Positions 16,267-41,264 of a stretch of DNA of 64,000 bases are shown one piece after another. Under the pieces are notes generated by a model, which did not search any database, had not been told where the DNA came from, and worked only from the letters and a program-made list of their open reading frames with translations. Within the stretch, counting starts at the first letter, position 1. Each line of letters starts with the position of its first letter. Position numbers and translations under genes: made by a program. The stretch is from Muribaculaceae bacterium Isolate-013 (NCI) (lineage in GTDB: Bacteria > Bacteroidota > Bacteroidia > Bacteroidales > Muribaculaceae). The DNA is taken from positions 1 through 64,000 of the forward strand of contig SCEJ01000002.1 of assembly GCA_004102785.1 (NCBI GenBank), in the 5' to 3' direction.

Positions 16267-17793
16267 TCAGAGCAGCGGATGCTCGCCGAAAAAATAGCGG
16301 GGAGACACCAGGCGATACAAAGTGCGCCCCGCCTGGGTACGCACCGGGATGCACATCACCGGCCGGTCGTAGCACACAGCCCCGGGGAGCGCCGGGAGAT
16401 ACAGGTACGCCTCCCCCTCCATGCGGAAATCGCGCATCGGAGGGAGGGAGCTCACGAGCACCGAGCCGTCGGGAAGGGGATACGAACTGCCGGCAGAGAG
16501 CGCCGAGGCCACTGAATCGAGCGGCACGCGGCTCATGGCTGACGGCAGCACCGTCAGCGACTCCTTGCCGTAATATTCGGCTATCTGCTTGAGCGTAAAG
16601 GCATCGGCATCCTCAAGAGCGCGCACACGCCCCAGGCGCCACAGCGGCTGTCGGTGTTCGTCGCAGAGGTCGCGGTAAAGTATGGGGTGCTTCCCTGAGC
16701 CGTACGAAGACAGGAGCCGGCCGATAGCCTCCACATCTCCGGCAGAGGCATGAAGCCCGCCCACCGGAGCCACCACGGCAACCAAAGCCGTCAACGAGGC
16801 CGCGGCGGTGGCTGCCGCGGCGGCACCACGCCGCAGCCTAACACCCGAGAGCGCCCCCATGCGCAGCAACGCAACCAGGGCATAAAGCTGTGCGAACCAC
16901 CCGGAACGACCCGTGACACCGCTCACGGCACAGAACACCAGCGCCACAACGCAGGCCACCGCCGCTCCACTCCACATGCGGTCGGCCATAACGCTCGCCA
17001 TCCACCGGCGCCCCCTCCCTCCGCACATGGCAGCGGCAACTACCGCGGCAGCCACAAAAGCCAGCGGTGCCGAATAGAGAAGCTGCAGCGGCAGCGGGTG
17101 GTCAGCGCCGCCGGGCGAGGCGCCCAGACGCCCCCACACCCCCGGCGAGGAGGCAACCAAAACGCACCCCGCGGCGAAAGCCCACAATGCGCCGCGCGCT
17201 GCACGCCCGGGCCTGCATCCGTCACCACGCCACCAGAGCCACATCATGGCCGCGGCCACCGGCAGCGAGGCAGCCTCGTGCATCGCTCCGGCAAGGAATC
17301 CCAGCGGACATAGCAGCCAGGGGGTGACACGCACGCCACGCCACAGCAGCCACACGAACGACAGGAGCACGGCCGACGAAAGCGCATAGTTGAAGTTGAC
17401 ATCAATCGAAAAGAGGTAATTCCACCACGGAAACAGGAGCACCACCGCCGCCATAGCCACACAGCAGAGCGCCACACGGCCACGCCGGCGCCACACCCCG
17501 CCGAGACGCAGCACCATAACAGACATCCACGCCGCTGCCGCGCCGGCCACTCCAGACACCAGCCACTTCGGCAGAAATCCCAAAGCAAAGGCGGCCATAA
17601 AGTTGGCTGCGCGCCCGTTGGTGTGAAGCCAGTGGAACGGCACCCATCGCCAGGCCTTGTCAGGCGGCCATATCCCCTCCCCCACAGCGTGGGCCGACCG
17701 GAATGTGGAGATATACCCCCAGTCGTCGGCGAAATAAGGCGCGGCCTCATAGACCGCCACCCAGGCCGCCGCCAGCAGCCACGCCAGAGCCAC
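16267..17793 (-). CDS. polytopic membrane protein, DUF6056-like
   Basis: The 508-residue protein has about ten hydrophobic segments. An acidic pair in the first outer loop (APYFADDWGY, near residue 22) and a later HTNGR segment are typical of the DUF6056 group, whose members look like GT-C-fold glycosyltransferases. A soluble C-terminal part of ~140 residues follows. Such proteins are thought to transfer sugars from lipid carriers outside the inner membrane, but no substrate can be named. It starts 95 bases after the deacetylase gene ends and may share its transcript. The family name is a judgement from motif layout. Confidence 0.6.
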   Translation of the reverse strand: MALAWLLAAAWVAVYEAAPYFADDWGYISTFRSAHAVGEGIWPPDKAWRWVPFHWLHTNGRAANFMAAFALGFLPKWLVSGVAGAAAAWMSVMVLRLGGVWRRRGRVALCCVAMAAVVLLFPWWNYLFSIDVNFNYALSSAVLLSFVWLLWRGVRVTPWLLCPLGFLAGAMHEAASLPVAAAMMWLWWRGDGCRPGRAARGALWAFAAGCVLVASSPGVWGRLGASPGGADHPLPLQLLYSAPLAFVAAAVVAAAMCGGRGRRWMASVMADRMWSGAAVACVVALVFCAVSGVTGRSGWFAQLYALVALLRMGALSGVRLRRGAAAAATAAASLTALVAVVAPVGGLHASAGDVEAIGRLLSSYGSGKHPILYRDLCDEHRQPLWRLGRVRALEDADAFTLKQIAEYYGKESLTVLPSAMSRVPLDSVASALSAGSSYPLPDGSVLVSSLPPMRDFRMEGEAYLYLPALPGAVCYDRPVMCIPVRTQAGRTLYRLVSPRYFFGEHPLL

Positions 17794-18522: not shown

Positions 18523-21500
18523 TCAGTTGCGCAGATAATCCTCCAGGTCGTTGAGGTTCACACCTTTGGCGGCAAGCTCCTTCTGGAGGGCGTCGGTATC
18601 GCCTCCGGCCTGCACATAATCGTCAAGGAGGTAATAGAGGTAGGAGGGCACAAAGCGGTCAACACCGCTCAGGCCGCCGAAGCCGCTGGCAGGCAGGGTT
18701 TTGCGCAGTTCCTTGAAATAGGGAAGATAGGCGCCGTAGCGGAGAATCTCGCCGTGGAGTATGTCAAGCCCTTTGAGGCGGAGTGCGTCCTTGCCGGTGG
18801 CGTCGGCCAACTGGATGTAGCAGCGGGCTATCTGCTCGCCGATCTGAATGGAGTATGGCGCCACGGAGGTGGGGAGTTTCTCGCCGATAAGGTCGAGCAC
18901 GGTCTCGGCCTTCTTGTAGCGGTCGGCGGCGAAAGCGCGGTCGGCCTCGGTCACGGTGCCTCCGTTGCCGAGCGAGTCGGCGCGGTGAGTGGCGTCGTAC
19001 CCCTCGAGGTAGAGGGCGGCGGCGAGGTCGGCCATAGCCGAGCGATGGGTGGTGACCATGCGCCTCACGGTCTCGTCGAGGTAGATGTCGCCGCTGCCGG
19101 CCTTGTCAAGACCGCCCCAGCGGAATTTCCCGGTGACGTTGCGGTACATCTTGTCGGTGGCCGTCCACGGATGGTTGCCGGCATCGCCCTGCTCGGGGTT
19201 GCGCAGCGGCGTCACCTGGTAGGCCAGGCCGGTGTTGCGCATGTAGGGGCCCATTGAGAGATAGAATTCGTCGGGCACGGTCATGGCGAAATAGGCCGGA
19301 CGGTTCCAGCCGTTCTGCACCTGGGTGTTGATCATGTCGAGCGAAAGCGCCTGGCTCAGGGTCACGCCTCCGGAGGTGTTGTAGGGGTCGTTGGGCAGGT
19401 CAATGCGTATGGCCTCCTCGGCGGCGGGAAGCTCGCGCTCCTCTATCACACCGGCGCGGGCGGCGGCCCCGGCGTTGGCGGGGATATACATCATGGGGTA
19501 GCGCATCACACGGGAACCGTTGTAGGTGGCCTGCGGGCTGTGATATAGGTCATCAAGCGATGTGGCGGCGCTGACCTCCTCGCTGCTCATGTTCTCGGGG
19601 TCGAAGAAGGAGTATTGCAGACGGTCGTAGGCATAATCGGCGGGAGAGGCCGACACGGGTATGCCCGAGGCGCCGTCGGTGGCCACACGCATCTGATGGG
19701 CGTACCAGTCGGTGGTGAGGTAGGAGAGGTTCACCACACGCACGTCGGTGCGGAATCCCTCCACCTCCTGCGCGTACCACAGGGGGAAGGTGTCGTTGTC
19801 GCCGTTGGTGAAGATTATACCGTTGGGGTCGACCGACGACAGATAGTTCATACCGAAATCGCGGGTGGTATAGCGGCCCGAGCGGTCGTGGTCATCCCAT
19901 GTCTGCGACACCATCTGGAGCGGCACGAGCACGCCTGCGGCGGCGGCCACTCCGGCTGCGAGCAACGCTTTTCCGCGTCCGTCGGAGGGAGCGGCAGCTC
20001 CGGCTTCTTTCTTCTTATCCTTCAGCAGGTGGTGCAGGATGGCGCTGATGGCAGCCACACCCATTCCTACCCATATTGCGAAGGCATAGAACGAGCCGGC
20101 GAAGGCGTAGTCGCGCTCGCGAGGCTGCAGCGGCGGCTGGTTGAGGTAGAGCACGATGGCGATACCCGTCATGAAGAAGAAGAAAAATATCACCCAGAAC
20201 TGCTCTATGCCCCGCTTCGAGTGGAACGACTGCCAGCAGAGACCGAGGACACCCATCAGCAGCGGAAGCATATAGAACACGTTGTGGCCCTTGTTACCCT
20301 TGCCGTATTCGTCGGGGAGGAGGCTCTGGTCGCCCAGACGGGGATTGTCGATGAAGGGTATGCCCGAAATCCAGTTTCCGCGGTTTGCCTCACCCTGGCC
20401 GGCATAGTCATTCTGGCGGCCGGCGAAGTTCCACATGAAGTAACGCCAGTACATGTAGTTGAGCTGATAATTGAGGAAGTAGCTCATATTCTGTGCGAAA
20501 GTGGGGCGGGCAAGCTCGGTTTCCTGGATGGTGTTGCCGTCGGAGTCCACCACCAGTGGCACGGTCACGCGGTCGAGGTCGCTCTCGTCGGCGTTGATCC
20601 ATTCCATGTAGGTTTTGGGATGCGACCCGGCGGTGGAATACATGCGCGGGAAGAGCATTTTGGGCACCATCTCGTAAGAACTCTGCTGACGGGCAACCAC
20701 ATAGCGGTCGGGCTCGTCGGGGGAGTTTTTCACAACTTTGGTGTAGATATCCTTGCCGAGTTTCTTGCGGTAGGTGTATTCGCCGGCGTCGGTGAGCTCG
20801 CGCTGCACGGTCGAGGCAAAGGTGTGGCCATAGAGCAGCGGCGTGTCGCCGTACTGCTCGCGCGATAGATAGGAGGCAAGGTCAAACACATTGTCGGGGG
20901 CGTTCTGGTTCATCGGCGGGTTGGCGGCCGAGCGAATCAGCAGCAACGCGTACGAGGAGTATCCGGCAAATATCACCATTATGCTCAGAGCCGAGAGGGT
21001 GAGCCAGCGCACGGGGAGCTTCCGGGCGGTCCACAGCCAGAAAGCAAGCGCGGCGGTTAGCACTACCGGAATCCAAAGCGACGAGCCGATGAAGGGGATG
21101 CCGCTGAGGAGCACCGAAAGCAGGAACGACCACCGTATGGCCGACACCGAGCGCTGACGGTAGAGCGAACGCACACACCAGATTATCACGCCCACGAAGA
21201 GGAGGGCATAGAAGAGCACACCTATATTATAGGGAGTGCCGAGGGTGTTCACGAAGAAAATCTCGAAATAACCGGCAACCTCGATAAATCCGGGCACCAG
21301 TCCGTAGAGTATCAGAGCCACGATGGCGGCGGAGATGGCCAGGGCTATCAGCGAACCCTTGGCGTTGGTATCCTTGAACTTGCGGTAATATATCACCAGC
21401 ACTATGGCCGGGATGCAGAGCAGGTTGAGCAGGTGCACGGCAATTGACACGCCTATCACATAGGCTATCAGCACCAGGTAGCGGTCGGCATGAGGCCGGT

Positions 21501-22011
21501 CGGCGCGGTTCTCCCATTTCAATATCAGCCAGAACACCAGCGCAGTGCAGAACGACGAGAAGGCGTAGACCTCACCCTCCACGGCCGAGAACCAGAAGGT
21601 GTCGCTCCAGGTGTAGGCCAGCGCGCCGCAAAGACCCGAGCCGAAAATGGTAATCATCTTCGGGAGTGACACCACGGTGGCGTCATCCCTCACTATGAGA
21701 CGTTTCACCAGGTGGGTTATAGTCCAGAACAGCAGCAGGATGGTGCCGGCCGAAAGGAGCGCCGACATGGAGTTGACCATCAGGGCAGCCTTCGACATAT
21801 CGCCCCCGGCGAAGTTCACGAAGAAACGCGCCGCAAGCATAAAGATAGGGTTGCCCGGCGGATGCCCAACCTCGAGTTTGGTACCCTGGGCTATGAATTC
21901 AGGACAGTCCCAGAAGCTGGCCGTAGGCTCCACTGTGAGCAGATAGGTCACTGCCGCCACAAAGAAGCAGAACCAGCCCAGCGAATTGTTTATGATGTTG
22001 TATTTTTTCAT
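18523..22011 (-). CDS. DUF2723 (GT117-type) membrane protein
   Basis: The 1162-residue protein has about twelve membrane segments in its N-terminal half and a long soluble, TPR-like C-terminal part. The N terminus carries the DUF2723 hallmark TASFWDCPEFIAQG followed by VGHPPGNP, an acidic loop like that of protein O-mannosyltransferases. The C-terminal part repeats the motif NGDNDTFPLWYAQEVEG, common in the family. Bacteroidetes members are assigned to glycosyltransferase family 117 and proposed to act in envelope glycosylation; the donor here is unknown. A perfect promoter lies at 22032-22063, and the deacetylase gene follows directly. Confidence 0.85.
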   Translation of the reverse strand: MKKYNIINNSLGWFCFFVAAVTYLLTVEPTASFWDCPEFIAQGTKLEVGHPPGNPIFMLAARFFVNFAGGDMSKAALMVNSMSALLSAGTILLLFWTITHLVKRLIVRDDATVVSLPKMITIFGSGLCGALAYTWSDTFWFSAVEGEVYAFSSFCTALVFWLILKWENRADRPHADRYLVLIAYVIGVSIAVHLLNLLCIPAIVLVIYYRKFKDTNAKGSLIALAISAAIVALILYGLVPGFIEVAGYFEIFFVNTLGTPYNIGVLFYALLFVGVIIWCVRSLYRQRSVSAIRWSFLLSVLLSGIPFIGSSLWIPVVLTAALAFWLWTARKLPVRWLTLSALSIMVIFAGYSSYALLLIRSAANPPMNQNAPDNVFDLASYLSREQYGDTPLLYGHTFASTVQRELTDAGEYTYRKKLGKDIYTKVVKNSPDEPDRYVVARQQSSYEMVPKMLFPRMYSTAGSHPKTYMEWINADESDLDRVTVPLVVDSDGNTIQETELARPTFAQNMSYFLNYQLNYMYWRYFMWNFAGRQNDYAGQGEANRGNWISGIPFIDNPRLGDQSLLPDEYGKGNKGHNVFYMLPLLMGVLGLCWQSFHSKRGIEQFWVIFFFFFMTGIAIVLYLNQPPLQPRERDYAFAGSFYAFAIWVGMGVAAISAILHHLLKDKKKEAGAAAPSDGRGKALLAAGVAAAAGVLVPLQMVSQTWDDHDRSGRYTTRDFGMNYLSSVDPNGIIFTNGDNDTFPLWYAQEVEGFRTDVRVVNLSYLTTDWYAHQMRVATDGASGIPVSASPADYAYDRLQYSFFDPENMSSEEVSAATSLDDLYHSPQATYNGSRVMRYPMMYIPANAGAAARAGVIEERELPAAEEAIRIDLPNDPYNTSGGVTLSQALSLDMINTQVQNGWNRPAYFAMTVPDEFYLSMGPYMRNTGLAYQVTPLRNPEQGDAGNHPWTATDKMYRNVTGKFRWGGLDKAGSGDIYLDETVRRMVTTHRSAMADLAAALYLEGYDATHRADSLGNGGTVTEADRAFAADRYKKAETVLDLIGEKLPTSVAPYSIQIGEQIARCYIQLADATGKDALRLKGLDILHGEILRYGAYLPYFKELRKTLPASGFGGLSGVDRFVPSYLYYLLDDYVQAGGDTDALQKELAAKGVNLNDLEDYLRN

Positions 22012-29910: not shown

Positions 29911-32900
29911 ATGACTATATTCAAGGTTCTACATAGATTTTTCGAGACTTTCGCCGGCAACATGCGCCGCCGCGCACAAACCGCAGCCATACTGCTGCCG
30001 GCGCTGATATGCGCCGCCGCGGCCCATGCCCTCCCCACATCGCACTACGCCACACAGTCGCGCCTGGCGTCAGGCCAATGGGTGAAAATCGCGGTGACCG
30101 ACGACGGCATACACCTCATCTCCGAGCAGACCCTGCGCTCATGCGGCTTCCGCGACTATGAAAAAGTAAAAGTCTACGGCTACGGCGGACGCCGCCTGCC
30201 GGAGATTATGGACGCCTCAACCTACCTCGACGACCTGCCTCAGACCCCCTCGGTATATGTGGCAGGCCGCGGCATCGTGTTCTACGCCCAGGGAGTGCAG
30301 AACGCCGAAACCTCCATCGGGCAATGGATACATCCGGCCATAAATCCCTTCAGCACAGCAGGCTACTACTTTATCAGCGACAGCGGCGAAGAGCCGCGCC
30401 TGGAGCCCGGCACCACAGCCCAGCCTGGAGCGACACCCGAAGCCGACCCGCAGCGTCCGGGCACCGACGATGTGGCACGCGGCTACTGGCACGGCGTATG
30501 GCACAAAAGCGAGCTCACCTCGCCCGGACAATGCGGCCACCTGCTCGTAGGAGAAGATTTCCGTTACACTCCCAAACGCGACTTCAGAATCGACATGCCC
30601 GGCATGATGCCCGACACCGTGGCATACCTCGAAACTTCGTTCGTGGCCAACGGCACCCAGGCTACCACCGTGGCATACTCGGCCAACGGCTCCGAACTCG
30701 AATACCAGGCATCCGACCGCCTTTATGCCAACAACGACGAGCACACCCACGGCACCGAATCACTCTCGCGCCGCGAACTGCGCGACCTCACCAAAGAGCA
30801 GCTCACCATCGGAGTGAACTATACCAACGGCTCCACCGTAAGCCTGGCCAACCTCAACTACATAGCCGTGAACTACCTGCGCGCGCTTGATGCCACCGCC
30901 CTGGCAGGCAAGCCCTTCACCCTTCAGAGCAACCGACGCAAAGCAGCCCTTTCAGGCGCCGGCGCCGAGACCGTGGTGTGGGACGTGACCGACCCCATGG
31001 CCGTGGCCCGCGTCAACGCATCACTCTCGGGGAGCACACTGAGCTGGACCTCCGACTACTACTCCGACCGCACCTACGCAGCATGGACGCCGCAGATGGC
31101 TATGCCCTCACCCACAGTGGCAGGCACGGTGAGCGCGCAGAACCTGCACGCCCTCCCCGTCACCGACATGGTGATAATCACCGCCCCCGACTGGCGCGAC
31201 CAGGCCGAGCGGCTGGCCGAATTCCACCGTCGCCCCGGGCCCGACTCGCTGAGCGTGACGGTGCTCACCCCCGAAGCCATCTACAACGAATTCTCATCAG
31301 GTCAGCCCGACGTGATGGCATTCCGTAAATTCTTCAAAATGATGTACGACCGCGGCACCGAAGCAGGCCACCCGCTGCGCTACGCCGTGATAATGAGCCG
31401 CGTCACCTTCGACAACCGCCGTATCACCCCGCAGATCAAAGCACTCAGCTACCCCACCCTCCCGGCATGGTTCACCGACGCCGGGCTCAGCGACAACTCC
31501 GCCTACACCACCGACGACGTGATGGCATTCCTCGAGGACGGCTCCGGACGCGACAAAGGGCGCGACCGCCTGTCAATCGCCATCGGCCGCCTCCCGGTGA
31601 CCTCCGCCACCAGCGCCCGCGACGCCGTCGACAAAATCATAAACTACTCCACCTCGTCGCCCAAAGGTAACTGGCGCAACCACGTGCTGTTCCTTGCCGA
31701 CGACCAGGACAGCAACATCCACTCGCAGCAGAGCGAGCGCCAGCAGCGCTACATGAAAGCCTCCGACGGCGGTCCCGAGCTCTTCTACAAAAAAGTGTAC
31801 GTTGACCAGTACGACCTCATCTCCAACCAGTGCGTGCAGGGACGCGCCGACTTCTACCGCTACCTCGACGAAGGGGTGATGTGGTGGAGCTACATAGGCC
31901 ACGCCTCCCCCACCGCCCTCACCGCCGAGGGCATCGTGACCTACACCGACCTCAACGGCCTCTACATGCGCCACTGGCCCGTGATATACGCCGCCACATG
32001 CAACTTCCTCCGCTGGGACGCCCCCGACATCTCCGGCGCCGAACTCCTGTTCTTCAACCCCAACGGCGGTGTGTCGGCCGCCATCTCCGCCACACGTCCG
32101 GTGTACATCTCCGACAACGGCTATCTCTCCGACGCCATCGGACGCAACGCATTCGAGCGCGGAGCCGACGGCCGCATACGCACCATCGGCGAAATCTACA
32201 CCGGGGCGAAAAACAACTTCCTGGTAAACGGCGCAGTTGCATCCAACACCAACAAACTGCGCTACGTGCTCCTGGGCGACCCCGCCATGCGCCTGGCCAT
32301 CCCCTCGGCGCGTGTGGTGCTCGACACCGTCAACGACGCTCCTTTCGTAGGGCTTGACGACGACCCCGACGAACCCACCACCCTCATGGCCCGCCAGAAA
32401 GTGACCATCACCGGGCACATCGAAAACCCCGCGGGCGAACTCATGACCGGCTTCAACGGACGCCTCAACTCAACCCTCTACGACGCCGAGACCTCCTACA
32501 CAACCCAAGGGCACGGAGGCGCCGACCCACAGACCTACGACCAGCAGGGGGGACGCCTCTTCATCGGCACCGACTCCGTGGCCGCAGGCAAGTTCACAAT
32601 CAACATCACAATGCCCGCCGAAGTTGCCGACAACTACCGTGCCGCAGCCCTCAACCTCTTCGCCTCGGCCGACGACGGCACCGAAGCCGTGGGTGTCAAC
32701 CGCTCGTTTGTGGTCTACGGCATGGACCCCGACGCCGAGCCCGACGATGTGCCCCCCTCCATCGACGCCTTCTATCTCAACCACCCCACATTCCGCGACG
32801 GCAACACCGTAAACCCCTCGCCGATGCTAATCGCAACCGTAACCGACGACCGCGCCATCAACCTCTCCACAGCCGGAATCGGCCACCAGATGCTCCTGAC

Positions 32901-33417
32901 CCTCGACGAGGGCGCCACACAGTACACCGACGTGGCTCTCTACTATACCCCCCTTTCCGACGGAACACCGGGCGGCACAATAGCCTATCCCCTCGAAAAC
33001 CTCACCGAGGGGGAACACACCCTGCGCCTGCGCGTGTGGGACACCGGGCCAAACTCGGCCGAGGCCACCCTCTCCTTCCGTGTGGCCAAAGAGGTTGCTC
33101 CGGTAATCTACGATGTCTACACCGACACCAACCCCGCCTCAGTGCAGGCCAACTTCTATGTGTCGCACGACCGTCCGGACCGTCAGCTCAACGTCACCAT
33201 CGAGGTGTTCGACCTTATGGGGCGGCGAGTGTGGGAGGGGAGCCAGACGGCCCGCAGCGACATGTTCTCATCCGTGCCTCTGGTGTGGAACCTCACCGAC
33301 GGAGCCGGACGCCGTGTGCAGCGCGGCATATATCTCTACCGTGCCACCGTTTCCGACGACACATCAGGCGACAAGACGGCCACCGCCACACGCAAACTGG
33401 CAGTCACAGCCGAATAA
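29911..33417 (+). CDS. porU: type IX secretion sortase PorU
   Basis: The 1168-residue protein is a gingipain-like (C25) cysteine protease of the PorU type. The catalytic dyad is His664 in SYIGHASP and Cys697 in AATCNF, in the usual order and spacing. A signal peptide starts at Met18 (RRRAQTAAILLPALICAAAAHA follows), so the true start may be 29962. The C terminus has an Ig-like, FlgD-type fold (GRRVQRGIYLYRATV). PorU sits at the cell surface with PorV, removes the sorting tail from cargo and attaches anionic LPS. It opens a tightly packed run ending with recO. No TAnnTTTG box was found directly upstream. Confidence 0.93.
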   Translation: MTIFKVLHRFFETFAGNMRRRAQTAAILLPALICAAAAHALPTSHYATQSRLASGQWVKIAVTDDGIHLISEQTLRSCGFRDYEKVKVYGYGGRRLPEIMDASTYLDDLPQTPSVYVAGRGIVFYAQGVQNAETSIGQWIHPAINPFSTAGYYFISDSGEEPRLEPGTTAQPGATPEADPQRPGTDDVARGYWHGVWHKSELTSPGQCGHLLVGEDFRYTPKRDFRIDMPGMMPDTVAYLETSFVANGTQATTVAYSANGSELEYQASDRLYANNDEHTHGTESLSRRELRDLTKEQLTIGVNYTNGSTVSLANLNYIAVNYLRALDATALAGKPFTLQSNRRKAALSGAGAETVVWDVTDPMAVARVNASLSGSTLSWTSDYYSDRTYAAWTPQMAMPSPTVAGTVSAQNLHALPVTDMVIITAPDWRDQAERLAEFHRRPGPDSLSVTVLTPEAIYNEFSSGQPDVMAFRKFFKMMYDRGTEAGHPLRYAVIMSRVTFDNRRITPQIKALSYPTLPAWFTDAGLSDNSAYTTDDVMAFLEDGSGRDKGRDRLSIAIGRLPVTSATSARDAVDKIINYSTSSPKGNWRNHVLFLADDQDSNIHSQQSERQQRYMKASDGGPELFYKKVYVDQYDLISNQCVQGRADFYRYLDEGVMWWSYIGHASPTALTAEGIVTYTDLNGLYMRHWPVIYAATCNFLRWDAPDISGAELLFFNPNGGVSAAISATRPVYISDNGYLSDAIGRNAFERGADGRIRTIGEIYTGAKNNFLVNGAVASNTNKLRYVLLGDPAMRLAIPSARVVLDTVNDAPFVGLDDDPDEPTTLMARQKVTITGHIENPAGELMTGFNGRLNSTLYDAETSYTTQGHGGADPQTYDQQGGRLFIGTDSVAAGKFTINITMPAEVADNYRAAALNLFASADDGTEAVGVNRSFVVYGMDPDAEPDDVPPSIDAFYLNHPTFRDGNTVNPSPMLIATVTDDRAINLSTAGIGHQMLLTLDEGATQYTDVALYYTPLSDGTPGGTIAYPLENLTEGEHTLRLRVWDTGPNSAEATLSFRVAKEVAPVIYDVYTDTNPASVQANFYVSHDRPDRQLNVTIEVFDLMGRRVWEGSQTARSDMFSSVPLVWNLTDGAGRRVQRGIYLYRATVSDDTSGDKTATATRKLAVTAE

Positions 33418-33442: not shown

Positions 33443-35083
33443 ATGCCATCGCCAGAAGCGAAAAACAAGCATACCACCACGGCCATCCAGGCGTATCTGC
33501 GCCGGGGTGGCTGCCTGCTTATGCTGGCCGTCGCCGTGGCTGCTCCACTGGCAGGGGTACAGTTCGGCGCCCTTGACCCCTGCGACGAAAGCTACCAGGC
33601 GCTGTGCGTCGGCTCCTACTCATGCCAGCCCTCAGCCCCGGCCATATTCGCCGCAGGGCATCTGTGGCAATGGTTGTTCGGACACGACGCACTGACCCTC
33701 CGCTACTTAGGCGTGATATGCGTGCTGGCGGCGATAGCCATCGGCGCGCTGTGGTATTACCGCCGCCGAGGCAACGCCCTGGAGGCCTGCGCCCTCATGG
33801 CCGCGGCATCGCTCACGGCCACCCCCGCAATATTCCGCATCTACAACTGGGATACAGGCGCATACCCCGTCGAAGCGCTCTCGCTCGTGGCCGCACTATC
33901 GCTGTGGCTCAGACCCCGCATGTGGAAAACAGCCCTGCTCGGCGCACTCTGCGCCCTGGCATTCCTGAGCCGCGTGCAACTTGCCATATACCTCCCGCTG
34001 GCGCTATGGCTGGCGGCTGCCGCTCTTCCGCGCCGCCGAAGAGCGGCAGCCGCACTCACTCTCGGAGCTTTCACCGCCGTGTGGGCCGCGGGCGCCCTGG
34101 TGATTTTCGGCAGCCCCCTCGGCCATGCCGAGGCTATCATCTCCGGCAACTTCATCAGCGGCCACACCCTTGACAACTGGCGCTACTTACTGCGCCGCGC
34201 CCGGCTCGACACCATCGACCTCCCCCTCGCCTGGCTGCCGCTGGGAGCGGCTGCCGCCGCTGCCGCGGTGTTCCACCGCTACCGCTCCCCCCGGCCCTGG
34301 CTCCGGCCGGCTCTGGCTGCACTGCTTTGCGGGTGGATATTCCTGGCCGCGGCCATCACCGTCACCTTCTACGACGGCATCATCTTCGCCGCCGACCTCC
34401 CCCTGTTCATCATCGTGGCGATCCTGCCGGCCGCCATGCACTGCCGGCCGATGCCGGCAGCGGCGATATGGATATGTGTTATTTCCGTAGCCCTCACGGC
34501 TTTCGGCTCCGACGCCATAGCCGAACGCTACTTCTCATCCTACGCCCTGGCTCCCCTTGTGGCTGTGGTGCTTCCCGCGCTCCGACGCGGCGGCCGCAGG
34601 CTGCTTTGGACCCTGATAGCGTTTGCGGCGACGGCCGGCGCCTGCACCTCGGCCATGCGCCATATTGCGCTGGCACGCGTCTACACACACGCCATGGACC
34701 GGTTCCCCCTCCAGCGCGGCCTGCTCGGAAGCCGGCGCGACCTCATGAGCTGGAGCGCCATGCAGGCTGAAACAGATATGCGTGCCGGAAAACGCATAAA
34801 ATTCGTATGCCGCCCCTACGGGCTGCTGCTCAGCTACGGCAAAGAGTCATATGACTGGGCTGAATTACAGAACTTTCACTTTAAAGACGGGGATGCCACG
34901 CCGGAATACGACAATGCCGGCGCCCCCCTCTACGATGCATATATATTCACACTGGCCACACCTGAGAACATGCCACTGACCATGCGGCAATTCTCAGAGG
35001 CCGGATACACCCTCGCCCCCCAAAGCGAGGCATCGCTCAACGGCGAATATTTCATTCTGGAATCACATGAAGCCAACAACTGA
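33443..35083 (+). CDS. polytopic membrane protein, paralog 1 of 4 (possible GT-C glycosyltransferase)
   Basis: The 546-residue protein has about eleven membrane segments and a soluble C-terminal part of ~110 residues. The first outer loop carries CDESYQALCV (Asp48, Glu49), an acidic pair in the place where GT-C glycosyltransferases (ArnT, PMT) have their catalytic acid. Other family marks are YNWDTGAYP, FGSDAIAERY and DRFPLQRGLLG. The frame is open upstream into porU, but the ATG at 33443 gives the proper N terminus. It shares motifs in order with the next three genes. I do not recognise a named family, and the sugar-transfer role is inferred from topology and motif position. Confidence 0.8.
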   Translation: MPSPEAKNKHTTTAIQAYLRRGGCLLMLAVAVAAPLAGVQFGALDPCDESYQALCVGSYSCQPSAPAIFAAGHLWQWLFGHDALTLRYLGVICVLAAIAIGALWYYRRRGNALEACALMAAASLTATPAIFRIYNWDTGAYPVEALSLVAALSLWLRPRMWKTALLGALCALAFLSRVQLAIYLPLALWLAAAALPRRRRAAAALTLGAFTAVWAAGALVIFGSPLGHAEAIISGNFISGHTLDNWRYLLRRARLDTIDLPLAWLPLGAAAAAAAVFHRYRSPRPWLRPALAALLCGWIFLAAAITVTFYDGIIFAADLPLFIIVAILPAAMHCRPMPAAAIWICVISVALTAFGSDAIAERYFSSYALAPLVAVVLPALRRGGRRLLWTLIAFAATAGACTSAMRHIALARVYTHAMDRFPLQRGLLGSRRDLMSWSAMQAETDMRAGKRIKFVCRPYGLLLSYGKESYDWAELQNFHFKDGDATPEYDNAGAPLYDAYIFTLATPENMPLTMRQFSEAGYTLAPQSEASLNGEYFILESHEANN

Positions 35084-36749
35084 CAACCAACCAAATACCG
35101 GCCGAAGCCATACACTCCTCACCATCCTGACCATCTGCGCCGGGTGCGTGATCGGTTTCTCGGGCGTGAACCTCGGCCTCCCCGGCCCCGGCGACGAGAG
35201 CTACCAGGCCCTGTGCGTGGCCGACTACCGCAACAATCCCCTGGGGATGCTCGCCTTCTTCATCGGCCACCTGTGGCAGAATCTCTGGGGCGATACAGTG
35301 CTGTCGCTCCGCTGCCTGGCCTCGCTTGAGATGCTTATGGCCGTGGGGATTGCGGGCCTCTACCTCTGGCGCCGCACCGGCCGGGCACTAATGTCGGCGG
35401 CGGTGTTCACATTCTGCATCCTTGTGGCGCGCGCCACCGCATTCCAGCTCTACAACTGGGACAGCGGCTCATATCTCTTTGATGCCGTGGCCCTTGTGGC
35501 CGTAGCATCATTTCTGCGCGGTGGCGACCCACGCAAAGCCATTGTAGCCGGCGTGGCCGTGGCGTGCATGGCGCTGGCCCGGGTGCCGTCGGCTGTTTTC
35601 GCACCCGTTGTCTTCGGCTTCATATGGGCCGGATGCCGCCGACACGGCTTCAGCACCCGCCACACATCGCTGGTGCTCGGCGCATACACCGCGGCCGTAC
35701 TGGCCTCGGCCCTGATTCTTGTCACACTCATGTGCGGCTCGCCGGCGGAATACATTGCCAGCTTCCGGCCCGAAAACCTTGTGGGGGGGCACTCCCCCTC
35801 CGACCTCCCCGACTGGATAAAGCGCATCGGCGAACTGGGTTATAACCAAATGGTGTGGATCACACCGTCGGCCGTGGCAGTGGCTGCCGGGCTTCTTCTC
35901 CACCGCCTGCAGTCCGGCCACCGGTGGCTGCGCGCCATGGCCGTAATCTTCACCGTGGCCCTGACCTTCGTGGTCTACCGCCACCGCGAGGCATGGTGCG
36001 ACTTCGAGTGGAACTCCCTCGGAGCCGACCTCCCGCTGACGGCATTCCTGCTCCTGCTCTTCCCGGTGTGGAATCTCACCCACACCCGGCGCGCGGACGC
36101 TCCCGGCGCGGAGCTGTGGTGGTGCGCCGCCATGGTGGTGCTCATGTCGTTCGGTTCCGACACCTTTTTCGAGCGGATGTGCGGCGCCTTCACCCTGCCG
36201 GTAATCATCGCCGCGATATGGCCGCAGGCACCCGGGGCGATGCTGCGCCTGGTGCGGAGCGTGCTCATGGTGTCAGCGGCGGTGTTCGCCACCGTTGTCG
36301 CCGAGCAGTGGGTGATGAAAGCCCGCCACAACACCGCCGCGCCACCCGAGCGATATGAAGCCCTGCGCGGACTGCGGGTGAGTCCCGCCGACCTCCGCTG
36401 GCTTGAAATCAACGAGACCGCCGCACGCACCGCCCGCGCCACCGGCATGCGCTACGTGACCTGCGTAAACCGCTTTACCCCGCAACTTATATTCGGCCGC
36501 GACAACGGTCCGCGCCTCTCCATATTCCACATCGACTCCACCGACCCCTCGCAGTGGCCGCCGGAGCAGACCGGGGCAGTGGCCGCCGCACAGATGATAA
36601 TCTATAACGAGACGATGGCGGCCGACGCCCCGGTGTTCGCACATCTGCGCGCCCTCGGCTTCACCGACGTGCTTCACCGCGACGATGTGCACATCTTCGC
36701 CCGCCATGCCGACACGGCGGCGATAACCCCTGAAACCGACAGCCTATGA
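35067..36749 (+). CDS. polytopic membrane protein, paralog 2 of 4
   Basis: The 560-residue protein repeats the layout of the preceding gene. It has GDESYQALCV in the first outer loop (Asp43, Glu44), GHLWQNLWGDTVLSLRCL, YNWDSGSYLFDA, and FGSDTFFERMCG before the last membrane segments. The start overlaps the end of paralog 1 by 17 bases, so translation is probably coupled. The C-terminal soluble part (VNRFTPQLIFGRDNG) probably faces the periplasm. It is closest to paralog 3 by motif identity. Confidence 0.8.
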   Translation: MKPTTDNQPNTGRSHTLLTILTICAGCVIGFSGVNLGLPGPGDESYQALCVADYRNNPLGMLAFFIGHLWQNLWGDTVLSLRCLASLEMLMAVGIAGLYLWRRTGRALMSAAVFTFCILVARATAFQLYNWDSGSYLFDAVALVAVASFLRGGDPRKAIVAGVAVACMALARVPSAVFAPVVFGFIWAGCRRHGFSTRHTSLVLGAYTAAVLASALILVTLMCGSPAEYIASFRPENLVGGHSPSDLPDWIKRIGELGYNQMVWITPSAVAVAAGLLLHRLQSGHRWLRAMAVIFTVALTFVVYRHREAWCDFEWNSLGADLPLTAFLLLLFPVWNLTHTRRADAPGAELWWCAAMVVLMSFGSDTFFERMCGAFTLPVIIAAIWPQAPGAMLRLVRSVLMVSAAVFATVVAEQWVMKARHNTAAPPERYEALRGLRVSPADLRWLEINETAARTARATGMRYVTCVNRFTPQLIFGRDNGPRLSIFHIDSTDPSQWPPEQTGAVAAAQMIIYNETMAADAPVFAHLRALGFTDVLHRDDVHIFARHADTAAITPETDSL

Positions 36750-38494
36750 CTCTGCAATCGCTCATACCCACGGGCCGCGCCATGCGCGCGGCGCTCTCGC
36801 TGCTGTTCGTGGCGGCGGGCACGGCTCTGATATTCAGCTCCATCGAATTAGGCGGAGTAGGCGAAGGCGACGAGGGCTACCAGCTCATGTGCGTGGAGAA
36901 TTACTCCACGTCGCCCCTCGGCATGTTCTCCTACTGGACGGGACATATCTGGATGAACCTCTTCGGAGGAGAGGTGCTCGCACTCCGGGCCCTGGTGTCG
37001 CTGACAATGCTTCTGGCCATCTTCATCGGATGCTTCTACTGCTGGCGACGCACCGGCAACATGCTTCTGGCAGCGGCCCTGGTGCCGGTCTGCGCAATGG
37101 GCAACCGCTTAGGCGATTTCCCGATATTCAACTGGGACACCGGCACATACCTATACGATGCCATCGCCCTTGTGGCGTTGCTGTCGTTCACAGAGCGGCC
37201 ACGGAGATGGAAAGCCGCTGTGGCCGGGGCGGCAATCGCCCTGATGACCCTCGGACGCCTCCCGCTCGGCATCGAGCTGCTCCTGGCCATGGCCGTGGTG
37301 TGGGCTTCATGCCGTGCCGCAGGCCTGGGCTGGTCGCGGATACTGACATTCTGGGGCATCGGCCTGGGAGCCTTCACAGTCTGCGCCCTGCTGGCGATGA
37401 CGGCGATGTGCGGCTCGCCCGCAGCCTATGCCGCCTCGTTCGTACCCGAGAATTTCATCACCGGCCACGGCGCCGGCGATCTCTCGGCCATAGTGCGCCG
37501 TCTGTGGTATCTCCTCCCCCGCCAGATATGGTATCTGGCCATCGGAATGCTGGCTCTGGCAGCCGCCGTGGCCGTATGCCTGGCTAGACGGCACAAAGCC
37601 GCCGTTGCCGTAACCGCCACATGCGCCCTGATATATTATTCCACCCTGATGATTATCGAGGGGCAATACGGCTCGGTGTGGTCGTGGCTTTTCCTGGGGA
37701 GTTTCCTGTCGGTGTTTCTCATCGTGCTGTTCTGGTATCCGATGGCGCGCATGATGCGCCCGGCCGACAACCCCGGCGCCCCGGTGCCATGGCTGCAACT
37801 GCTCACCATCCTGGGGTTCATCACCCTGATTTCGTTCGGCTCCGACACCTTTTTCGAGCGGATGTGCGGCGTGTTCGCCCTCCCGATGGCCGTTGGCGTG
37901 ACCTGGCCGCTGATGCGCGGCGGCGAACGTCACATGCTTAAAGTGTATCTCATTTTCTTCATGGTTGCCTTCGGCTCGATATGGACAACCAGGCAATATC
38001 ACCAGTACCGGCTCTACCGGGTGCCTATGGATGAATTCCCACACCATCGCGGACTCCTGGCTCACCCCGTGCAATATGGCGGCTATAAGGTGAACCGGGC
38101 CGCAATCGAATCCTGCCGGCGCAACGGCAAAAGCTACATGGTTTTCGGAGCACGGCTCAACCTACTCTACACATTCGGCCCGGATGACGGCTACCCCTAC
38201 CACTGGTTCGACAGCCACCTGTTCCGCTATCCCGGAGGCTACATAGAGGCGATAAAGCCTTATGCCGAACGCACCGACGCCGTAATCTACGCCGGCGAGA
38301 TGGGGATATCATACGACGAACTCGTGGAAAACCTCGCGCCGATGGGGTATGTGCCGCTGTGGCGCCACCTGCGTTGCTCCATATTCGTGAAAAAAGAGTC
38401 GGCGGCGGCAGTGGGCCGCACTCTGCGCGAGATTCTCGACACAGACCCCTTCCTCCGCCGGCACATAATCAGAAAACCCCGCAAACAGGCATGA
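36746..38494 (+). CDS. polytopic membrane protein, paralog 3 of 4
   Basis: The 582-residue protein has GDEGYQLMCV (Asp42, Glu43), GHIWMNLFGGEVLALRAL, FNWDTGTYLYDA, FGSDTFFERMCG and DEFPHHRGLLAHP in the same order as paralogs 1 and 2. About eleven membrane segments are visible, then a basic C-terminal tail (RRHIIRKPRKQA). The start overlaps the previous stop as ATGA. As for the others, a GT-C-type role outside the inner membrane is inferred. Confidence 0.8.
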   Translation: MTLQSLIPTGRAMRAALSLLFVAAGTALIFSSIELGGVGEGDEGYQLMCVENYSTSPLGMFSYWTGHIWMNLFGGEVLALRALVSLTMLLAIFIGCFYCWRRTGNMLLAAALVPVCAMGNRLGDFPIFNWDTGTYLYDAIALVALLSFTERPRRWKAAVAGAAIALMTLGRLPLGIELLLAMAVVWASCRAAGLGWSRILTFWGIGLGAFTVCALLAMTAMCGSPAAYAASFVPENFITGHGAGDLSAIVRRLWYLLPRQIWYLAIGMLALAAAVAVCLARRHKAAVAVTATCALIYYSTLMIIEGQYGSVWSWLFLGSFLSVFLIVLFWYPMARMMRPADNPGAPVPWLQLLTILGFITLISFGSDTFFERMCGVFALPMAVGVTWPLMRGGERHMLKVYLIFFMVAFGSIWTTRQYHQYRLYRVPMDEFPHHRGLLAHPVQYGGYKVNRAAIESCRRNGKSYMVFGARLNLLYTFGPDDGYPYHWFDSHLFRYPGGYIEAIKPYAERTDAVIYAGEMGISYDELVENLAPMGYVPLWRHLRCSIFVKKESAAAVGRTLREILDTDPFLRRHIIRKPRKQA

Positions 38495-40005
38495 AAACCT
38501 CCACAATCCGCATAATCATAACCCTGGCAACGGTGGCCGCAGGCATCGCGGCGGCATTCATCGGCCTGACCGCCGGAGCGGCCGGATACTCCACCGAGTC
38601 GTACTCCATGCTGATGACTCGCAACCCTATGGCACACATCGCCGGGCTCCCCGTCTGGCTTGCCGGATCAGGGTGGGCGGCGGTTTTCGGCCACAGCGTC
38701 ACCTCCATGCGCGCCCTTGTCAGCGTATGCGTGGCAGCGGCTGCGGCCATAGGCGCCATATATTACCGCCGGAACACGGGCAACACCCCGGCGGCCGCCA
38801 TGATTTTCCTGCTGTCGGTGCTATGCGCCCGCGCCGGGGAGGTGTTTGAATACAACTATTTCACAGTAGGATTCCCAGCTTACGCGCTTGCTACCGTGGC
38901 ACTTATATCCGCTGCGAGGCGCCGCACGCCAGTGCGGTGGCTCGCAGCAGCCCTGTGCACAGGGCTGGCCGCCTGGTGCGTCTCGGCGCGCTTCATTGGT
39001 TCGCCGGCCGCCGCATATGGTGCCAACATCGTCGAGACCCTCACCTACTATCCCATCGTGAATATGGAACTTGTGCTCTACTGGTCGCCGATGGTGGCGG
39101 CGCTCCTTGCCGCGCTGGCCATGACGCGGCGGCGGCTCCGACGGCCGCGGACGGCGGCGCTGTGGTTCATTGTGATTGTCACGGCATACACAGCCATAAT
39201 ATCGCACGCCCTGATGAGCGACTACTTCCTGGAGCGCGGACTCATCGGCGCCGCACAGCCTCTGGTGCTGGCACTGTTGCTGCTGATTCCGGCACGCAAT
39301 CTGCTGCTGGCCCGCACTCCGGAGGAAAAGATACCGGTGCCGGCCGCCCCTCTCTGGTGTGTGGCGGCACTGTTGCTGCTGCTCCCTGCCGGTGTGGCAG
39401 CCGACGGCTCCCGCTGCTCGATAGCCGTGTTCTTCGCCATAGGACCGGTGGCGGCGGTGATACGCCCCTGCCTCACCCCCGCGCTCTCACGCTTCGTGAA
39501 AAGGTCGCTGGCGCTCGCCGCCATTGTGGCCGCCACCATCCTCATCACTCTCACCGCCTACCGTCACAAGCATTTCGTATATCCGCTTGACGAATTCCCG
39601 CTGCACGCCGGCCGCACCACCCACGCCTGGGAGTACAACACCGTAAAAGCACAGGCCGACTCGCTGGCAGCCTACCGCGCCAGGGGGATAAACACCCTGG
39701 TACCCTACGGCCACTGCCGTCTGCGCATGATGTACGGCCCGCAGCTCACCGACAGCCGCGACTCCTTCACCGATGAGATGATAACCCCGGTGCAACCCCC
39801 TCTGCTGCGCACCTACGGGCACTATACAGCCCGGGTGCTCCCCGCACTCGACCGGGCCGATGCTGTGATATACGAGGGATACGACAGGCAGGAGGACTGG
39901 CTGATACCACGCATGATGGAGGAACGCGGCTTCGACCTCGCGGCCGGTCTGCGTTACAGCGCCATATACCGCCGCGCCGAACAATCCGGCGCCCATACGC
40001 ATTAA
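38491..40005 (+). CDS. polytopic membrane protein, paralog 4 of 4, divergent
   Basis: The 504-residue protein keeps the overall layout and several motifs (YNYFTVGFPAYA in place of NWDTG, SDYFLERGLIGAA, LDEFPLHAGRTTHAWEYN). The first outer loop reads YSTESYSML: the Asp of the DE pair is replaced by Thr, and the Gln after Tyr by Ser. It is also the shortest member. If the pair is catalytic, this copy may be inactive or use another acceptor. The start overlaps the previous stop as ATGA; the frame is open upstream, but only this ATG gives a membrane-type N terminus. Confidence 0.78.
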   Translation: MKTSTIRIIITLATVAAGIAAAFIGLTAGAAGYSTESYSMLMTRNPMAHIAGLPVWLAGSGWAAVFGHSVTSMRALVSVCVAAAAAIGAIYYRRNTGNTPAAAMIFLLSVLCARAGEVFEYNYFTVGFPAYALATVALISAARRRTPVRWLAAALCTGLAAWCVSARFIGSPAAAYGANIVETLTYYPIVNMELVLYWSPMVAALLAALAMTRRRLRRPRTAALWFIVIVTAYTAIISHALMSDYFLERGLIGAAQPLVLALLLLIPARNLLLARTPEEKIPVPAAPLWCVAALLLLLPAGVAADGSRCSIAVFFAIGPVAAVIRPCLTPALSRFVKRSLALAAIVAATILITLTAYRHKHFVYPLDEFPLHAGRTTHAWEYNTVKAQADSLAAYRARGINTLVPYGHCRLRMMYGPQLTDSRDSFTDEMITPVQPPLLRTYGHYTARVLPALDRADAVIYEGYDRQEDWLIPRMMEERGFDLAAGLRYSAIYRRAEQSGAHTH

Positions 40006-40025: not shown

Positions 40026-41264
40026 ATGGAAAAGTTACGACTCACTCTGATATACATCGCCTTGCTGCTGCCGTCCCTCGCCATGGCCGTAAGCCCCGGC
40101 GAAGTGGAGAACGTGCAGTTGCGCGATTCGCGGCGCTACGTCTCCGACATGGCCGGCGTGCTCTCGCCGCAGGCGCTGGAACGCGCCGACTCAATACTTG
40201 CCGACATCCGTTCCCGGACTTCGGCCGAGGTGGTGATGGTGATTGTCGACAACCTCTCGGGCCAGGATATCGACGACTGGGCCACAGAACTTTTCACCCT
40301 ATGGGGCATCGGCAAGAAGGACCGCGACAACGGTGTGCTCCTTGTAACCTCCGTAGGCGACCGCGAGAATGTTATCCGCACCGGCTACGGCGCCGAACCG
40401 GTGCTCCCCGACCTGGTGTGCTGGAACATCATACAGAAAAAGATGAACCCGCGGTTCCGCGACGGCGACTTCGACGGGGGCGTGATTGACGCCCTCGATG
40501 CCGTGCGCGCCTCCATGACCTCGGAGGAGGCCCGCAATGAACTCGCATCGCAGCAGCCCGACGGCGCCGGCAGCGACGACTCCGCGGAACTGTTCGCCGG
40601 ATATATCACCCTGGGGGTAATCAGCTCGCTGGCTCTGCTGCTGCTCGTGGCCGGACTGTGGGTGAAGACCCGGCGGCTCCCCACAGTAGAGGCATATGCC
40701 CGATGGGACCGCTGGAAACTCCCGGCAATAATGATTACGGTGCTGTTTATCGGTATGCCGCTGCCCTGGCTTGTGGTGATGCTGCTGAGAATGCGCCACA
40801 TACGCCTACACAAACACCCGTGCCCCAACTGCGGCACACTGATGCAGCGGCTCGACGAGGATACCGACAACAAATACCTCACCCCCTCGCAGGACCTTGA
40901 GGAACAGCTCAAATCGGTGGACTACGACGTGTGGCTCTGCCCCAAATGCAACGAGCGCGACATAATACCCTACATCAACCCACGCTCCACCTACAAGCAG
41001 TGCCCCGCCTGCGGCACACGCGCCGAGCAGATGGTGGCCGACCGCGTGGTGCGGCAGCCCTCCGAACTGCGCGACGGCCTCGCCATAAGGCAGTTCCGCT
41101 GCTCCAACTGCGGCCACACCCGCGCCGTGCAGACCACCCTGCCCAAGCTCCCGCCGGTTATCATCGGCGGATTCGGAGGCCGCGGAGGGGGTGGAGGAGG
41201 CTTCTCCGGCGGCTCGTTCGGAGGAGGCATGACCGGCGGAGGGGGAGGCCGCGGAGGCTGGTGA
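40026..41264 (+). CDS. TPM-domain protein with zinc ribbons and Gly-rich tail
   Basis: The 412-residue protein has a signal peptide (ends near LAMA), a TPM domain (about residues 30-175, with GIGKKDRDNGVLL and RTGYGAEP), two membrane segments (about 190-212 and 238-262), and four CxxC motifs (CPNC, CPKC, CPAC, CSNC) that could bind two zinc ions. It ends with a Gly-rich tail (GGFGGRGGGGGG...RGGW) like YgcG proteins. TPM domains occur in a plant photosystem phosphatase and in bacterial envelope proteins of unclear function. It lies 20 bases after paralog 4. Confidence 0.85.
   Translation: MEKLRLTLIYIALLLPSLAMAVSPGEVENVQLRDSRRYVSDMAGVLSPQALERADSILADIRSRTSAEVVMVIVDNLSGQDIDDWATELFTLWGIGKKDRDNGVLLVTSVGDRENVIRTGYGAEPVLPDLVCWNIIQKKMNPRFRDGDFDGGVIDALDAVRASMTSEEARNELASQQPDGAGSDDSAELFAGYITLGVISSLALLLLVAGLWVKTRRLPTVEAYARWDRWKLPAIMITVLFIGMPLPWLVVMLLRMRHIRLHKHPCPNCGTLMQRLDEDTDNKYLTPSQDLEEQLKSVDYDVWLCPKCNERDIIPYINPRSTYKQCPACGTRAEQMVADRVVRQPSELRDGLAIRQFRCSNCGHTRAVQTTLPKLPPVIIGGFGGRGGGGGGFSGGSFGGGMTGGGGGRGGW

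Follow-up and report, generated by a model that had tools for sequence, protein, structure and literature searches.

We analysed a window of 64,000 nucleotides (the whole stretch of DNA under study), in which a run of four adjacent genes, here called g1 to g4, followed the sortase gene porU. The genes and their neighbours were located as follows:

29911-33417, + strand: porU, type IX secretion sortase, upstream neighbour of g1 (NCBIfam NF033707, 877 bits)
33443-35083, + strand: g1, putative GT-C paralogue of 546 aa (ORF, codon bias, phmmer matches to g2 and g3)
35067-36749, + strand: g2, putative GT-C paralogue of 560 aa, modelled with AlphaFold (Foldseek and VIA-align matches to GT-C structures)
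36746-38494, + strand: g3, putative GT-C paralogue of 582 aa (conserved residues kept)
38491-40005, + strand: g4, diverged paralogue of 504 aa (residue losses, long branch, poorer model)
40026-41264: TPM-domain protein, between g4 and recO

The overlaps were 17 bp (g1/g2), 4 bp (g2/g3) and 4 bp (g3/g4), all genes being on the + strand; the coordinates, the lengths of 504-582 codons and the overlaps of 4-17 bases agreed with the original prediction. Its placement of the genes between porU and recO was right as to position, except that one extra gene, encoding the TPM-domain protein, comes before recO, whose name we take over from that prediction as an assumption. Third-position GC was 0.75-0.81 in g1-g4, the codon index was 0.48-0.56 compared with 0.27-0.37 in four overlapping shadow ORFs, and we read g1-g4 as genes. 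Invertible or promoter elements were looked for at the array and none convincing was found.

Through phmmer comparison among the ORFs of the window, g3 matched g2 at ~1e-85, g1 at ~1e-49 and g4 at ~1e-23. The E-values among g1-g4 overall, from ~1e-87 to ~1e-17, bear out the predicted paralogy and indicate diverged paralogues with a similarity beyond chance; identity was ~31% between g2 and g3, and 24-25% between g4 and g1-g3. One DNA tract around the FGSD motif was identical at 39/40 bases in g2 and g3 (36141-36225 and 37826-37910). Gene conversion between the two genes was considered and rejected, the run of identical codons being not significant (P 0.086). Elsewhere in the window, the - strand encoded a TMEM260-like protein (18523-22011; PF11028, DUF2723, 1.7e-72), a putative protein O-mannosyltransferase, adjoined by a gene for a DUF6056 protein (16267-17793, - strand; PF19528, 7.8e-9).

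Four motifs, DESYQ, NWDTG, FGSDxxxER and DEFPxxRG, had been predicted to occur in the same order in all genes. This held for g1 (DESYQ, NWDTG, FGSDAIAER and DRFPLQRG) and g3 (DEGYQ, NWDTG, FGSDTFFER and DEFPHHRG), in which all four were full or nearly so. In g2 (DESYQ, NWDSG and FGSDTFFER) the DEFP motif was replaced by PERYEALRG, and g4 (TESYS, NYFTV and DEFPLHAG), without FGSDxxxER, had lost most of them and retained only a form of the last. Two sites of g2 are proposed to take part in catalysis:

35193-35204, + strand: DESY of g2, candidate catalytic acid; D43-E44 starts the helix that follows TM1 (residues 43-52)
35457-35462, + strand: W131-D132 of g2, candidate second acid, located in periplasmic loop 2

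In an alignment of 33 family members (A2), Y46 was found in 33/33, D43, E44 and W131 in 32/33 each, and D132 in 27/33, its position being N in G025-type members. The D43-E44 pair was the same in g1 and g3, and was T-E in g4. Ten polar columns were conserved at 80% or more (g2 numbering: D43, E44, Y46, R82, W131, D132, R172, N237, H242 and S364); nine of them lay in predicted periplasmic loops or at most 3 residues away, and R82 lay in TM2. Mean pair identity was 25.9% in TM1-7, 15.4% in TM8-13 and 16.0% in the C-terminal domain.

NCBIfam revealed no family for g1-g4 up to an E-value of 5, including the ArnT equivalog NF009784. Pfam PMT_2 (PF13231) matched nine of 21 members (best 2.1e-7), and no other Pfam family was found in the 21. 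As single proteins, g1 (18.9 bits), g2 (23.1 bits) and g4 (16.4 bits) all scored below the PMT_2 gathering threshold of 26.1 bits, and g3 had no Pfam match; in a six-frame search g2 reached 26.8 bits against this cut-off of 26.1, compared with its 23.1 as a single protein. None of the 21 members matched the TMEM260-like/DUF2723 domain PF11028, the MIR domain or the PMT domain (which we take to be PF02366), and no STT3/PglB-type domain was found by Pfam in the 21 members or by NCBIfam in g1-g4. A sequence search against PDB gave no match for g3 alone and only chance rows for the profile A1. Profile comparison with the DUF6056 and TMEM260-like proteins of the window and the ArnT-like protein of its genome, using a single sequence on one side, gave no convincing match.

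The AlphaFold model of g2, built on 8 sequences, had a pLDDT of 85.1 and a pTM of 0.87; 13 TM helices were counted in it by hand, followed by a C-terminal periplasmic domain of ~140 residues. K and R made up 23% of the cytoplasmic loop residues and 5% of the periplasmic ones, with the same sign of difference in 33/33 members. Foldseek with this model returned three rows at E<=1e-3, namely ArnT 5f15 (2.1e-5), ArnT 5ezm and one OST; the best GT-C rows had a probability of 1.00 and TM-scores of 0.43-0.48, with modest E-values. The best 50 rows of VIA-align comprised two GPI transamidase entries and 48 entries for GT-C enzymes or for subunits of OST; the PIG-U subunit of GPI transamidase is described as having the GT-C fold too in the available part of PMC12041525. 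The best values, Pmt1 with Z 18.3 (362 residues, 4.4 A) and ArnT with Z 16.5 (427 residues, 5.2 A), were above the level of Z ~13-14 at which VIA-align warns of helical bundles. The predicted GT-C resemblance was thus recovered with g2, whose structural matches also included Pmt4, OST, ALG and Emb; for g1 and g3 it is expected from their homology to g2, and for g4 it is weaker (ArnT Z 11.1).

A transporter fold had been named beforehand as the outcome that would speak against GT-C enzymes, and it did not occur in the g2 structure comparison. That the array proteins are transporters or flippases for envelope lipids is extremely unlikely: they are indeed polytopic membrane proteins, and transporter rows appeared low in the Foldseek list, but with a probability below 0.5 and TM-scores of ~0.1-0.15, compared with 1.00 and 0.43-0.48 for the best GT-C rows, and conserved acids at the JM1 tip suit catalysis.

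In the g2 model, helix 43-52 begins at D43, and it is from this helix boundary that the catalytic placement of D43 was read. According to the text seen of PMC12041525, the catalytic base of PimE, D58, is at the JM1 apex, with equivalents in ALG6, ArnT and PglB, and PMC12705809 describes the DE motif of PMTs at this place. In the g2 model the acidic pair, which g1 and g3 share, opens the juxtamembrane helix; this is the position of the catalytic acid in GT-C enzymes, just as had been predicted. The fold match of g2, the position of the DE pair and the predicted periplasmic location of nearly all conserved polar residues together support the GT-C idea.

The same comparison bears on which kind of GT-C enzyme is present. 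The array proteins could be protein O-glycosyltransferases with a PMT- or TMEM260-like function, acting on exported proteins instead of glycans or lipids, because the top VIA-align row was Pmt1 (Z 18.3), followed by Pmt4, and the DE pair corresponds to the DE motif of PMTs. We regard this as possible, though on the unlikely side: with PMT_2 as the sole Pfam match in 21 members there is no PMT, MIR or TMEM260-like domain, the Z gaps among GT-C families are small and the fold does not give the acceptor, and a TMEM260-like protein is already encoded in the same genome (18523-22011). Many catalytic subunits of OST were also among the fold matches (Z 14-17), which would suit oligosaccharyltransferases or ligases moving whole glycans off diphosphate lipids; this is very unlikely, given the lack of any STT3/PglB-type Pfam or NCBIfam match and a C-terminal domain of only ~140 residues.

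The fourth gene had lost five of the ten conserved polar residues (D43->T, W131->Y, D132->F, H242->L and S364->A), and had a deletion around TM5-TM7 in a stretch present in g1-g3. Its branch length in the tree was 1.81, with unsure placement, and its model, using the same eight sequences, was poorer than that of g2 (pLDDT 71.6). The first 30 VIA-align rows of g4 were GT-C, with the ArnT Z of 11.1 being within the helical-bundle background. The simplest reading of its sequence is that g4 is probably inactive and has lost catalysis; a role as a non-catalytic partner is possible.

Nine family members were found in the genome of the window: four here, three on contig C252 and one each on C11 and C71 (the genome search listed ten rows, two of which were pieces of g4). 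A search with g2 gave matches in four of 61 genomes in the sample of relatives, its own included. The 21-member profile matched 29/397 genomes of the family Muribaculaceae at 1e-8, and 22/222 among better assemblies; at most three candidates were scored per genome, so copy numbers across the family are lower bounds. Beyond it, weaker matches occurred in 9/393 genomes of the order sample and 2/395 of the phylum sample, its own genome being counted in both, and viral contigs were searched for relatives with none found. One named relative, a MAG contig titled Alistipes timonensis (JAMPHO010000001.1), agreed in length and match with contig C11 of G005, which is placed in the genus of the window; this label may be wrong. 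The assignment of the window to the Muribaculaceae was taken from its relatives.

The family is patchily distributed, and its genes recurrently stand in tandem, in arrays of 2-5. Same-strand arrays were found in the genome of the window (4 and 3 copies), G010 (2 and 4), G005 (2), G025 (5, one split), G091 (at least 4, at a contig end) and G341 (5), and a single copy in the stretches examined of G317, G308, G243, G313 and G188. The neighbours identified included rpoA and rplQ for G010 and, for G025, a gene encoding glutamate dehydrogenase; those flanking the G341 and G091 arrays are presumably hisS, trmH and glutamate dehydrogenase, named from ORF starts. Two members of the C252 array were separated by an acyl-ACP thioesterase gene (L009 6009-6806, - strand). 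The split member of G025 extended over two overlapping frames (L038 8427-10060, + strand), an apparent broken copy.

In the tree of 35 members, g1 grouped with C1a of G010 (100/100) and g2 with C1b (94/94), and g3 and g4 had no G010 partner; the locus therefore has two copies in G010 compared with four here. The C252 array and the C5 array of G010 also grouped (100/100). That these two arrays occupy the same locus was considered and set aside: rplQ of the genome of the window is on C355, with a 476-base tail without the start of a family member, and linkage was unsupported.

The original prediction also drew a function from the neighbouring PorU sortase, suggesting that the genes may build or vary the surface glycan to which it attaches cargo. 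We found porU in 14/14 genomes of the genus, and a family member in the flanks examined in only two, the genome of the window and G010; among named relatives, the one with this arrangement was CAMEPD010000001.1, a MAG of an uncultured Muribaculaceae bacterium. The flanks examined covered at most ~1.5 kb on each side, that of G004 being uninformative with 174 bases downstream. Seven of the 14 genomes had instead a gene encoding the peptide IPEPALRR, which we take to be Rex. With sister arrays beside rpoA-rplQ and glutamate dehydrogenase, that is, unrelated housekeeping genes, a conserved association with PorU was rejected and the functional inference is not supported: the porU neighbourhood is not conserved in the flanks examined, so the position of the array is a trait of the lineage from which no function can be argued. 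The genes may or may not act on surface LPS. The TPM gene was likewise rejected as a partner, its G010 copy being on the strand opposite to porU at a distance of ~7 kb, and elsewhere on other contigs. In several genomes of the genus (G011, G006, G007 and G002 among others; loci such as L085-L088), the PorU query also matched a second site, on the strand of porU and ~1.3-1.5 kb away from it.

The array may be largely a relic of duplication, with one or two important members and the others in decay. The loss of five of ten conserved polar residues in g4, the G025 copy split in two frames and the patchy presence of the family all point this way, but g1-g3 keep the conserved residues and the coding bias, and g1 and g2 have G010 partners at the same place, and we consider it unlikely. 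Judged by sequence, g1-g3 are apparently functional and g4 apparently worn down. We also consider it unlikely that the arrays are a birth-and-death family equipping each Muribaculaceae species with periplasmic sugar transferases of its own, alike in donor chemistry and diverging in their acceptor parts, in which degenerate members such as g4 are kept as non-catalytic partners in hetero-oligomers and the envelope glycan becomes species-specific.

From the model and the sequences, we consider it likely that g1-g3 are inner-membrane GT-C glycosyltransferases which arose by tandem duplication and diverged in their acceptor parts, with g4 probably a decayed, non-catalytic copy. By analogy with known GT-C enzymes, g1-g3 would most likely take a sugar from a polyprenyl phosphate and transfer it to acceptors in the periplasm. 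There, the two acidic residues at the start of the first juxtamembrane helix would activate an acceptor hydroxyl, and this hydroxyl would attack the sugar of the polyprenyl-phosphate donor, with D132 possibly acting as second acid and the donor phosphate held by R172 and H242, perhaps also R82. In Pmt4, the donor phosphate contacts are two His, one Lys and one Arg, as given in the available portion of PMC12705809, and R172 and H242 are candidates for a similar role. Tandem duplication would have kept the donor and catalytic half (TM1-7) and let TM8-13 and the C-terminal domain diverge; such a pattern of conservation points to a single donor chemistry and to acceptors that differ among the paralogues and may be envelope glycans, lipids or exported proteins.

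A donor is plausible, since two suitable GT2 proteins are encoded in the genome, one resembling dolichol-P-mannose synthase (best PDB match 5mlz, 2.4e-28) and one ArnC-like, both on contigs other than that of the window. Among those array neighbours that were scanned against Pfam, none was recognised as a donor synthase or a flippase, and three GT2 matches were found ~6-8 kb from the C252 array. Nine copies in one genome and the tandem arrays suggest that periplasmic glycosylation is fast-changing in Muribaculaceae.

Among the papers listed, we found no description of such arrays in the literature on glycosyltransferases or mannosyltransferases of Muribaculaceae, DUF2723, O-glycosylation in Bacteroidota or family 39 of Bacteroidales. 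Among known systems, ArnT (5ezm/5f15) was the top Foldseek match and shares the GT-C fold, the 13 TM helices with a periplasmic domain (the layout given for 5ezm in the accessible text of PMC7801869) and the acid at the JM1 tip; unlike ArnT, g1-g4 had no NCBIfam ArnT match, and the identity of g2 was 10-11% over the structural alignment. A separate ArnT-like protein is encoded on contig C141 of the genome. Pmt1 and Pmt4 (VIA-align Z 17-18) share the GT-C core and the DE motif between TM1 and TM2, whereas the array family has no MIR or PMT Pfam match and has a C-terminal domain instead. In the GT136 three-component systems, a donor synthase, a flippase and a GT-C enzyme form one pathway, as far as the text seen of PMC11127046 goes; by analogy, the array proteins would resemble their extracytoplasmic GT-C, which uses a polyprenyl-phosphate sugar, but no synthase or flippase partner was found beside the array among the genes scanned. 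We would class the family as an unnamed subfamily of GT-C enzymes, close to PMT_2 and ArnT-like in layout, a known kind of enzyme and not a new one. An unnamed, patchy membrane family of gut commensals is thereby placed among GT-C enzymes with predicted active-site residues; its function class is ordinary for the GT-C superfamily, and what is distinctive is the repeated tandem amplification together with the patchy distribution.
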